Assembly: GCA_019787685.1 (NCBI GenBank)
Contig: JAHNUO010000070.1
Span: 1-64,000, forward strand
Source: Chiua virens
Taxonomy: Eukaryota; Basidiomycota; Agaricomycetes; Boletales; Boletaceae
Length of the DNA stretch: 64,000 nt
Direction of reading: 5' to 3'
Part shown: positions 6,034-10,635 of the stretch, piece by piece
How positions within the stretch are numbered: position 1 is the stretch's first letter
Layout of the letters: every line of letters starts with the position of its first letter
Notes under the pieces: model-generated
The model's input: the letters and a program-made list of their open reading frames with translations, nothing else
Database searches by the model: none
Told to the model about the DNA's origin: nothing
Program-made: the position numbers and the translations under genes

Positions 6034-9000
6034 TCAAAAGAAAAATGGCTTACAAAGTAGATTCTGGGCAATCACATTCATAATAAGCTTTTTCATTTCC
6101 TTCTCTGCTTGCCAGTGAAAGTTGTATTGAGGTACAAGGTTAGAGATTGCTTTGTTGACATTGCAGATTGTGTCAGATGATTGATAGAGCTCCCTTGCCA
6201 ATGTAATTGGATCTTGAGCACCTTTCTGGTACAAAAAAAAGGAATGTTCTAGGATAATGGCAATGGCTACAAATGCTAATAAATATAGTGATGGAATATA
6301 ACAGAATACTGACCAATGCCTAGATGAAGTGCTTCAATCCATGAATGATGTTCTAAAGAGGACTAAATCAAAGAATATGAGATACAAAGAAGAAAAAATA
6401 ATTGTCACATTAGTTGACTTACTATAGATGGAGATGTAGTTGGGAGTGACATTGTATTTGGAGAAATGGAAGGCTTTGTATCATCATATTCAAAATTGAT
6501 CAAAATAAGGAGATGAGAACTGAAATGAATTGAACATACATTGGAAGACTCCAATATCTGTGAAATTGGTATTACTATTTGTATTGCAAATATTAAAAGC
6601 ATGACGAACCTGCTGAAAAATAAAAGTTAGGATAGAATAAACGCTGAAGATTTAAGTCATACATGCTAATAAAGTAATTAAAAGAGTGTTGGAATTTGAA
6701 AAGGTGATTTGTTAGTATATATAAAAAATGCTTACATCCTAAGGATTTGATGTTAAAGTAAATAAACAAATAAAAGGTTATAAAATATATACCATCTATA
6801 ATATATATCCAGGTGATAGAGGAAGTGATGAATTATAGAATAGATGAGCATCCATCCTTTGGGAAGCTCATTTACAATGAAAGCACTTACTTGCTATGAA
6901 ACAGAAAATAGGGGAAAGGACATAGGGGCATGGATGAGCATCCTTTAGAAAGCCCATTCATAATTAGAGCACTTACATCCTATAAAGCAGAGGACAGGAA
7001 AAAGGACACAATGGTATAGATGAATATCCTTTTGGAAGCCCATTTACAATCAGAGCACTTACCCACTATGAAACAGAGGATAGGAGAAAAAACAAAGGGG
7101 TATAGATGAGTATCCTTCAAAAAGCCCATTTGCAATCAAAGCACTTACAAACTATGGAACAGGGACAGGGGAAAGAACATAGGGACATGAATGAACATCC
7201 TTCAAGCTAGAAGCCCATTCACAATCAAAGCACTTACAAGCTATGAAACAGAGGAAAGAGGAAATGGCACAGGGGAATGGATGAGCATCCTTCAGACTAG
7301 GAGAGCACTTACCCACTATGAAAAAGAGGACAGGGAAAAGGACACAAAGGCATGGATGAGCATCCTTTAGGAAGCCTATTTATAATGAGAGTACTTACAA
7401 ACTATGAAACAGAGGACAGGGGAATGAAAAGAGGGGGATGGATAAGCATTCTTCTAGAAACTGATTCATAATCAAAGCACTGACTTGCTATGAAGCAAAA
7501 AAAAAAACAGGGGAAAGGACACAGGGGCATGGATCAGCATCCTTCTAGTATAAAGCCCATTTACAATCAGAGAACTTACATTCTATGAAACAGAGGATAG
7601 GGGAAAGGACACAGGGGCATGGGTGAGCATCCTTCAAAAAACCCATTCACAATCAAAGCACTTACAACCTATAAAACAGCAGACAAGGGAAAGGATACAG
7701 GGGCATGGATGAGCATGCTTCTAGAAGCCCATTCACAATCAAAGCACTTACTCCCTAGTATGAAACAAAGAACAAGGGAAAGGACAGAGGGGCATGGATG
7801 AGTATCCTTTTGGAAGCCCATTCACAATCAGAGTACTTACAAGCTATAAAACAAAGGACAGGGAAAAGGACAAAGGGGCATAGATGAGCATCCTTCTGGA
7901 AGCCATTCACAATCAGAGCATTCACATCCTATAAAACAGAGGATAGGGAAAAGAACAAAAGGGCATAGATGAGCATCCTTTTGAAAGGCCATTCACAATC
8001 AGAGCACTTACATACTATGAAACAGAGGACAAGGGAAAGAACAGAGGGGCATGGGTAAGCATCCTTTTTGGCAGCACATTCACAATCAGAGCACTTACAA
8101 ACTATGGAACAGAGACAGGGGAAAGGATAGAGGGGCATGTATGAGTATCCTTCTAGAAGCCCACTCATAATTAGAGCACTTACTCCCTATGAAACAAAGG
8201 ACAGGGGAAACAACAGAGGGGCATAGATGAGCATTCTTCTGGAAGTTCATTTTCAATCAGAGCACTTACTCCCTATAAAGCAAAGAACAGGGGAATAGAA
8301 AGAGGGTCATGGATGAGCATCCTTCTAGAACCCCATTCACAATCAGAGCACTTACAACCTATCAAACAGAGGACAGGGGAATGGAAAGAGGGGCATGGAT
8401 AAGCATCCTTCAGGAAGCCCATTTACAAGCAAAGCACTTACTCCCTATAAAACAGAGGATGGGGGAAAGGATAGAGGGGCATAGATGAGCATCTTTCTGG
8501 AAACCCATTCACAATTAGAGCACTTACATACTATAAAACAGAAGACAGGACACAGGGGCATGAATGAGCATGCTTCTAGAAGCCATTCACAATTAGAGAG
8601 CACTTACTCCCTATGAAACAAAGGACAGGGGAAAAATAGAGGGGCATGGATAAGCATCCTTCTGGAAGCCCATTCACAATCAAAGCACTTACTCCCTATA
8701 AAACAAAGGACAGGGGAATGGATACAAGGGCATGAATGAGCATGCTTTTGGATTCCAATCAGAGCACTTACTTCCTATGAAACAAAGAACAGGGGAATGA
8801 AAAGAGGGTCATGGATAAGCATCCTCATTCACAATCAGAGCACTTACTTTCTGTGAAACAGAGGACAGGGGGAAGGACAGAGGGGCACAGATGAGCATCC
8901 TTCTGGAAGCCCATTCACAATCAGAGCACTTACTCTCTGTGAAACAGAGGACAGGGGAAAGGACAGAGGGGCATGGGTGAGCATCCTTTTAGAAGCCCAT

Positions 9001-10635
9001 TTACAATCAGGGCACTTACTGCCTAAAAATCAATCAACATCCATTAGATTTTTTTACTGTCCTGACCATTTATATTGTAAAAAAATTGTATACCTTCACA
9101 TGTGGAAACCATGCTGCAATTGCTTCCACCAATTCCTTCTCTTCAGAGTCTGTCAGTTTTTCATGTGTTTTATGTTTAGACCGAATGAAAGGCATCAATT
9201 TCCTATAATGTACATATTTCAGTACATATCACTGATTTTCTGCAGTCCACATCAATTACCTTTCTATAGCATACTCAATGCAAATCATCATATTTGTCTG
9301 CTGTGTAGTCACAAGCAGCATCTGCAGTTCTCCATCCAAGGTCACCAAAGTCCTCTTTAAGAGAAGTTCACATCCTTCTTTAGACTTGTCCATGTCTTTG
9401 TTCATCTCAGATCAGTTCAACCTGATCTAAATCCATAAATACACACCCTTCAACTCCACATATGTCTTTGGTGGATACTTCATTCCTTGCACCTTCTCCC
9501 ATGCAGGGTTCTTCTTCAACATTGCATCAGCATTATCCTGCCCTCTTGCAGTCCTTTCCTCATAAGGCAGTTTCTGTTCCTCAGGTGTTAAGGCTGCAAT
9601 GCCTTGCACCAGAAGTGCATCACATTTTGTGAACACAAGTACAACAGGCACTAAACAGGCAAGTAAGATGAGAAAGAACATTCCTCACATCACTTACCAC
9701 TCCCTGTGTCACATTCACCAAAAAACTTCTCCTCGGCAGCCAACACAGCCCGGTGATATTGGTCCATTGGAATGCAATACCTGTTCAGCAATGTGTCATT
9801 CATGGTCCACCACAAATGGTGCAGCTATCTCTCAGTACCATATAGCATGAATCCGTTCCTTGAGGAATGCTGTCTTTGCATGCTTCAAAACAAAAGCCTT
9901 TGTCTGCTCAAATTCTTCTATACTCCCAGATTCGAATCCCTGCGAGTCATGAAAAACAAATCCTGGATTGCCTCGAAAGACTAATTCCTTCCAGATATCA
10001 TGTATTCCGCGCTTGAGAAATGTTAGCTTGGTGTTACTGATAATGATGTCGCAGTAGCTATGGAACTCACATCACTGGATTCCTGGATTATTTCTGGATC
10101 AACCTTACCGCAGAAGATCAGCACGTCTCGATGTCATCTTAGTGACATTTAAGTATACCTCATTTCTGTTTCTGTCATAGATCACTGGATCCTCCGTGGA
10201 GTTACAGATTTGCTTTAGTATCATGGTCTTGCCAGCGTTGGGTCGGCCAATGATAAGGACTCTGAAGCGCCCAAATTTCTCTCTGATGCTGTCGATCTGC
10301 ATAGTAAATTCTGTGGATGTTTCTGCGCTACTGGGCTCGACGACTTGGATGGGTTCGGCGGTTGGCTCTGCAGGAAGTTCTACAGGAGGTCCTGCAGGTG
10401 TTTCTGTGTGCGATTCCGCGTGATGTTCTGGAATGGGTTCGCTAATGGGTTCGCGCAGTTGGCTGTGCTGAGGTACTACAGGAGGTGCTGGGGGAGTTTC
10501 TGCGCTTGATTCTGCGCGATGTTCCTCGTGATGTTCCATGATAGATGCTGCGATTGGCGTGGCAGAAAATTCCAAGGGAGGTCTCGTAGGAGTCTTGGGG
10601 CAACAGCACAGAAGGTGGCGAGCAAGTTTTTTCAT
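6034..10635 (-). CDS. G-domain GTPase with about 30 single-codon exons
   Basis: A P-loop GTPase of the large basidiomycete G-domain family. Exons with matching phases are 10109-10635, 9839-10036, 9698-9780, 9447-9650, 9260-9395 and 9094-9202, giving 419 residues. The first 115 residues are Pro/Glu/His-rich. G1 is GRPNAGKT (about 130-137), G3 is DSQG (about 206-209) and G4 is TKCD (about 277-280). After FPHVK the frame is in phase 0. It then meets an array of 3-nt exons (6610-9022; see the repeat entry), an 18-nt exon (6540-6557), a 51-nt exon (6423-6473) and a last exon (6034-6225) ending in a TGA. All these lengths except the last are exact multiples of three with good acceptors and donors. 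The model predicts about 535 residues. Uncertain points are the exon 1/2 junction, the 197-nt intron at 6226-6422 and the exact stop. The G-domain part looks intact, so this is probably an expressed gene. Confidence 0.8.
6610..6795 (-). other. Four further 3-nt exons in non-repeat introns
   Basis: Beyond the array, minus-strand acceptor-triplet-donor units continue: ATG at 6793-6795 (TTATAG before, GTATAT after), GAT at 6736-6738 (CCTTAG, GTAAGC), CAT at 6663-6665 (TATTAG, GTATGA) and CAG at 6610-6612 (TTTCAG, GTTCGT). The introns between them are 54, 70 and 50 nt. They are not copies of the repeat, and the 50-nt one has a CCTAAC branch-like site. The 95-nt intron before ATG begins as a repeat copy and then diverges. 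Donors after the ATG and CAG are weak, so those two are less certain. Confidence 0.6.
6843..9019 (-). repeat. Tandem array of about 25 introns separated by 3-nt exons
   Basis: On the minus strand each unit (modal length 86) reads GTAAGTGCTCTGATTG..., then a conserved GCTCATCC (a CTNAY branch-site match), a C/T-rich tract, then TTTCATAG. Exactly three bases follow before the next GTAAGT. Introns measure 72-92 nt, 83 in 14 of 25. The donor is GTAAGT in 24 of 26 units; exceptions are GTGAAT after 7926-7928 and GTCAGT after 7485-7487. All 26 triplets are preceded by AG. Triplets are GGA at 8693-8695, 8608-8610, 8442-8444, 8270-8272, 8184-8186, 7752-7754; TTT at 8099-8101, 7399-7401, 7149-7151; TAT at 8528-8530, 8012-8014; GTT at 8356-8358, 7666-7668; GAT at 7926-7928, 6977-6979; CTT at 7841-7843, 7238-7240; TGG at 7313-7315, 7063-7065; CAA at 7485-7487, 6891-6893; single GCA 9020-9022, AGA 8934-8936, AAA 8848-8850, GAA 8772-8774, AAT 7580-7582. 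None is a stop codon. A partial unit continues to 6843. Confidence 0.9.

Follow-up and report, generated by a model that had tools for sequence, protein, structure and literature searches.

We report a tandem array, resembling a minisatellite, that is best read as a chain of single-codon exons in a Chiua virens gene for a P-loop GTPase. The gene lies on the minus strand of the window, the 64,000-nt stretch analyzed here (positions 1 to 64,000 of contig JAHNUO010000070.1 in the 48.3-Mb, 136-contig assembly GCA_019787685.1), and its protein is JVU11DRAFT_12919. With a probability of roughly 0.8, judged from sequence, the codons are spliced in frame into a hypervariable segment of the GTPase, and the near-identical introns between them would let recombination reshuffle codons without loss of frame. 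This reading draws on the constant 3-nt spacing, the splice signals, the layout shared across the gene family, the uncoupled histories of triplets and introns, and triplet strings that differ between most of the sister genes compared; from these we infer that the triplets enter Chiua mRNA. A preliminary description had proposed single-codon exons made by intron amplification. This remains the best reading; besides the family-wide layout, it is favored by the near absence of stops, the scarcity of triplets that would give rise to a rival splice site, further single-codon exons between non-repeat introns and a variable peptide in relatives.

Tandem Repeats Finder places the repeat at 6853-9019 with a period of 86 and 25.4 copies. 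On the minus strand, 26 AG-NNN-GT junctions run from 9022-9020 down to 6893-6891, and every spacer is exactly 3 nt, whereas intron length ranges from 72 to 92 nt. The donor is GTAAGTGC in 21 of the 26 cases, GTAAGTAC in two, and GTAAGTTC, GTGAATGC and GTCAGTGC once each; consensus introns contain a CTNAY branch match (CTGAT or CTCAT). The head-to-tail introns and 3-nt spacers of the preliminary description are borne out. The array (6891..9022, minus strand) comprises 26 predicted single-codon exons and 25 array introns, is preceded by a diverged intron (9023..9093, GTATAC...TTTTTAG) and is followed by a final intron of array type that has also diverged (6796..6890). Its triplets are, in order, GCA AGA AAA GAA GGA GGA TAT GGA GTT GGA GGA TTT TAT GAT CTT GGA GTT AAT CAA TTT TGG CTT TTT TGG GAT CAA, which would encode ARKEGGYGVGGFYDLGVNQFWLFWDQ. 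In-frame internal exons of a few nucleotides with splice signals on both sides, the mark of microexon genes, are thus present as far as sequence signals tell. Because the array exons are 3 nt long and in phase 0, and their donors and acceptors are nearly identical, any donor-acceptor pair would keep the frame. This agrees with a tentative variant, compatible with the single-codon chain, in which the splice sites are real and many of these exons are skipped or alternative, yielding isoforms of varied length.

The same layout recurs across the gene family. A 58-residue exon of the window gene has 83 genomic matches, and we read 31 loci including the window: 12 were chosen for array matches (L009-L020), and 18 were taken from the list of GTPase exon matches with their array status unknown beforehand (L021+L023, L022, L024-L038 and L043, some of them close sisters). 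Arrays were found in 29 of the 31 loci and in 16 of the 18 chosen blind; L022 and L028 lack an array and are fragment-like. Most loci have an 86-bp unit; in L030-L035 and L038 it measures 88 bp and contains a clearly distinct intron of 85 nt. Array size varies from about 5 triplets (L031) to 55 (L015). To keep splice motifs from selecting the junctions, profiles were built from introns trimmed to their core by 8 nt on the 5´ side and 9 nt on the 3´ side, and the text between neighboring cores 5-40 nt apart was read. Of the junctions located in this manner in the 29 loci, 849/853 are AG-NNN-GT (807 directly, 40 re-read by motif, and two by eye, TGG in the window and GAT in L033); these totals cover recognizable units and count the near-identical pairs L018/L020 and L026/L036 twice. 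The four exceptions are two spacers in L021 (5 and 2 nt), a lost donor in L019 and a lost acceptor in L031. The strongest case is L024, in which the introns have decayed to many lengths and all 17 measured junctions are still AG-NNN-GT. Two local irregularities were also observed. The spacers TACAT and TA in L021 (2461-2551) resemble a partial fusion of two triplets. Upstream of the first triplet in L009-L016, a diverged unit has GA or AA at the acceptor position and AG directly before GTAAG or GTGAG; it is possibly a zero-length exon or a dead unit.

Minisatellites are common in introns, and the array could be one, lying within a single intron of about 2.3 kb (9093-6796), with exon 7 spliced to a tail exon and the triplets never translated. 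The NCBI annotation, which has no triplets, agrees with this alternative. A neutral spacer, however, should not remain fixed at 3 nt next to introns of changing length and sequence, and it should contain stops and be about as uniform as the remaining unit; we therefore regard the alternative as improbable.

The triplets carry a coding signature. We counted 814 triplets in 26 arrays, dropping near-identical duplicates and leaving out L028 and L031, which have too few units; the count takes in the first tail codon in most arrays and one doubtful entry from L043. When the bases were permuted by position within arrays, the shuffles contained a mean of 50 stop triplets, compared with 2/814 observed. 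Both are TGA and both lie in L019, a decayed copy that, with its lost donor, serves as a natural pseudogene control. NTA triplets, which would make TAG at the exon/intron border, occur once (113 in shuffles), and NGT triplets, which would place a second GT before the donor, occur 14 times (111 in shuffles). One codon dominates most amino acids: GGA is used 151 times and other Gly codons 8 times, CTT 129 times and other Leu codons 8 times, and GAA (59), TAT (52) and GAT (42) occur to the exclusion of their synonyms, while two or more codons are found for Ala, Arg, Pro and Ser. This pattern fits an amino-acid choice made under a splicing constraint. An apparent absence of Ser and Thr from the triplets was dropped as a rule when TCA and TCT were found in L037 and L038. 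The order of successive triplets is non-random in 2 of 25 arrays (L010 and L032), a comparison with low power in short arrays.

Triplets and introns have uncoupled histories. Introns of modal length are 97-100% identical in 13 of the 22 arrays measured, and in the 8 of these 13 arrays for which triplet identity was also measured, the triplets are 33-48% identical. In L029, the 26 introns differ at 0/2,158 nt, yet there are seven internal triplet types, whose origin requires seven base changes or more; the 32 introns of L017 represent two sequences only, with six internal triplet types. In 12 arrays, variability is higher in the triplet columns than in almost any intron column, whereas the columns of a non-coding minisatellite should evolve alike. 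Intron identity is lower in older arrays: 81.5% in the window, 90.5% in L018, 82.2% in L026, 73.7% in L027 and 67.7% in L033. Hypermutable triplets were considered as an explanation and dropped: L026 and L036 differ at 0/150 triplet bases and 27/4,021 intron bases, and L018 and L020 at 0/60 and 20/1,471, which together make 0/210 triplet and 47/5,492 intron changes; the intron rate predicts about two triplet changes, so this constancy does not prove constraint. We also rejected simple block duplication as the sole engine, as internal repeats of triplet runs beat shuffles (P < 0.05) in just 4 of 27 arrays.

Near-identical introns, as in introner families, between different triplets resemble one mobile element inserted repeatedly between the codons of a pre-existing coding stretch. 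Such an origin would require a hit at every codon boundary; we observed no multi-codon exon at array positions in the loci read, apart from the 5-nt spacer in L021. The 12 array-match places fetched outside the window all belong to the GTPase family (among the matches listed; 40/93 candidates were scored), and older arrays keep their spacing with drifted introns. Repeated insertion is accordingly highly improbable in our judgment.

Beyond the preliminary description, triplet strings differ between most sister genes while the introns are homogenized. We compared 11 sister pairs, using about 200 nt of upstream flank for L026 and higher-numbered loci. The strings differ in number and order in nine pairs (L012/L016, L009/L014, L010/L011, L010/L015, L029/L037, L032/L034, L032/L035, L034/L035 and L030/L038), whose flanks are 91-99.6% identical and at least 97% identical in eight. 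The longest shared triplet runs beat shuffles in one of eight sister pairs (L009/L014, P 0.026). L012 and L016, on contigs C31 and C13, match at 98% in their upstream sequence, part of which is confined to these two contigs, and a stretch located 44 kb away has a counterpart of 100% identity at the mirrored position. By these matches the two are probably alleles; alternatively, a segment of more than 44 kb was duplicated recently. For at least one region, the assembly apparently contains both haplotypes (C31 and C13; L012, L016 and L039-L041).

The remaining exons of the window gene are all on the minus strand. Seven ordinary exons (10635-9094) code for a proline/glutamate-rich N-terminus and a P-loop GTPase domain of the MMR_HSR1-like type, in which the G1, G3 and G4 motifs were identified by eye. 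Exon 1 (10159..10635) contains the start codon, the proline/glutamate-rich region and the G1 motif GRPNAGKT; it is the same in the NCBI model P0001, which also has exon 2 (10071..10103). Exon 3 (9839..10011) carries G3 (DSQG), exon 4 (9698..9780) is followed by exon 5 (9447..9650) with G4 (FTKCD), and exons 6 (9260..9395) and 7 (9094..9202) complete the series. Joined, these exons have a length that is a multiple of 3, and the last one ends ...AAWFPHVK in phase 0, as the preliminary description had stated for HVK. In a Pfam comparison with PF01926, the relative P0020 lies above the cut-off (E 5.6e-5), and P0005 and P0001 lie just below it. A 96-bp coding tandem repeat is located in exon 1 (10349-10524); this stretch is apparently longer in L010 and may form a second length-variable region.

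Downstream of the array, four further predicted single-codon exons, which the preliminary description did not include, are flanked by non-repeat introns: ATG (6793..6795), GAT (6736..6738), CAT (6663..6665) and CAG (6610..6612). Anchored on GAT, the pattern of GAT plus two further single-codon exons in non-repeat introns was found in 27/27 copies with DNA at this position, and a codon for L, M or I precedes these exons in 24 of the 27. The tail continues with an 18-nt exon encoding ILESSN (6540..6557), at which L010 has ILQASS and P0005 has VIPSSQ (placed by eye), a 51-nt exon encoding PSISPNTMSLPTTSPSI (6423..6473), a 49-nt exon (6314..6362) and the last exon of 233 nt to the stop (6034..6266), which includes the hydrophobic segment ILEHSFF. 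A three-exon protein query of the genome for an intronless retrocopy gave exon-by-exon matches or short-intron read-through and no clear copy. L021, on C2, had been considered intronless from its 294-aa open frame; it contains introns, which rules this out.

Eight relatives, which come from jgi or lgn contigs that measure 1.1-1.8 kb and were read as protein, bear on whether such codons are translated. We infer that they represent transcripts, since their contigs are short and they run without interruption across the sites of the many Chiua introns. In four of the eight (P0005, P0072, P0020 and P0065), a low-complexity segment of 15-30 residues follows WFPH and is succeeded by LD plus R or E; with limits set by eye, the sequences are (SQ)ERFEVFREFVFEFAN-LDRA in P0005, (TK)EKELLWLLGGLEEELLLERKRDRERNQLMN-NLDE in P0072, (IW)ARYYYDDVRDLDVLDLLRDLDVLLLLKREK-LDRS in P0020 and (LW)RLDDNFDFDHFDFLDNFDDNF-LDRV in P0065. 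The LD pair matches the L/M-D single-codon exons downstream of the Chiua arrays, and 0/96 residues of the four segments are S, T, C or P. P0005 and P0072 are 61% identical overall, and their segments differ; the conceptual protein of L010 can be aligned with P0005 on each flank of the segment. Extra residues at this position are not expected if the array is an untranslated minisatellite, and segments of 15-30 residues suggest that many units are included together, which speaks against widespread skipping. A second protein search with the Chiua C-terminus gave no match. In a structure model of P0005 (mean pLDDT 81), the variable segment is a helix at residues 298-315, predicted with moderate confidence. 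Compared with solved structures, the model is closest to a bacterial dynamin-like protein (TM 0.33-0.34 by query length) and to G domains; these matches to a model support a GTPase and nothing beyond it. Of 31 NCBI gene models that contain WFP (proteins P0001-P0059, leaving out P0038, in which WFP is N-terminal), 22 stop within 46 residues past WFP, some apparently into an intron, and hidden microexons may be widespread in Agaricomycetes.

Several observations weigh against the single-codon chain. The NCBI model P0001 ends just past WFPHVK, with seven residues taken from the following intron, and no triplets are annotated. The spacers of 5 and 2 nt in L021+L023 would leave that copy frameshifted, and the strings are identical in 2 of the 11 sister pairs (L018/L020 and L026/L036). 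Weak linkage between triplets and introns was detected in 4 of the 16 arrays with testable variants (P < 0.05 for one or both sides). Both the rules of codon avoidance and the count of S/T/C/P were picked after inspection of the data, and units within one array share ancestry and are not independent, so the shuffles serve as a guide and not as a probability. Among the relatives, P0033 and P0058 have a segment of a different type, P0013 stops 38 residues past WFP and P0027 stops 11 residues past it. All eight were read as protein and are putative transcripts, and single-codon exons are a possible source of the variable segments.

Under the single-codon reading, tandem amplification of an intron would have created the single-codon exons, and all or most triplets would be spliced together into mRNA. 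Identical introns would engage in unequal exchange and conversion, which would keep them uniform and reshuffle the codons with the frame kept, while selection for diverse residues would hold the triplets apart; fast intron exchange and selection for amino-acid diversity would together maintain the triplet variety. The near-random order and the scarcity of block repeats (4/27 arrays) imply that exchange acts often and on single units, or that a dedicated mechanism exists. A more speculative possibility, to which we give limited credence, is programmed codon-writing, in which near-random strings over a small codon alphabet are rewritten faster than the flanks mutate, with identical introns as frame-proof spacers, to give a repertoire of recognition peptides across dozens of genes. 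By analogy with the HNWD genes of Podospora (PMC1805685 and PMC2873952), the segment may be a recognition surface for self/non-self or parasite recognition.

If the array is spliced as predicted, the protein is diversified codon by codon, the introns, which are absent from the protein, provide the homology that recombination needs, and no event involving whole units disturbs the frame. The array would then test the spliceosome on dozens of consecutive 3-nt exons and point to a candidate recognition gene family in mushrooms. Single-codon exons may also explain the early ends of the annotated relatives (22/31 NCBI WFP models).

Schistosome micro-exon genes make proteins from many tiny in-frame exons, as predicted for Chiua, but their exons are longer and are not known to be amplified copies or single codons. 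No report of runs of single-codon exons was found in the open-licence PMC literature, subscription papers lying outside the search. Single exons of 3 nt (Drosophila hth, PMC7392893) and 1 nt (Arabidopsis APC11, PMC4674806) can be spliced; these share with the Chiua exons a length of one codon or less, but they are lone exons, whereas Chiua has about 5 to 55 in succession, which are highly variable and often separated by near-identical introns. Introners (PMC9860276, PMC4457414) likewise form near-identical intron families. They insert in many genes genome-wide, in contrast to the Chiua introns, which are in tandem, one per codon, and were seen here in one gene family. The HYP effectors of potato cyst nematodes (PMC11228951) have conserved flanks and central motifs from a small set that vary in number and order, as in Chiua; however, HYP motifs have 5-6 residues and follow order rules, whereas the Chiua motif is one codon between introns and 23/25 arrays show no order rule. 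The HNWD genes of Podospora (PMC1805685, PMC2873952) resemble the arrays in their concerted repeats, a few diversifying codons, reshuffling within and between members, and nucleotide-binding proteins. The HNWD repeat, however, is itself coding (WD40), whereas the Chiua repeat is a predicted intron in which the codon alone would be exonic.

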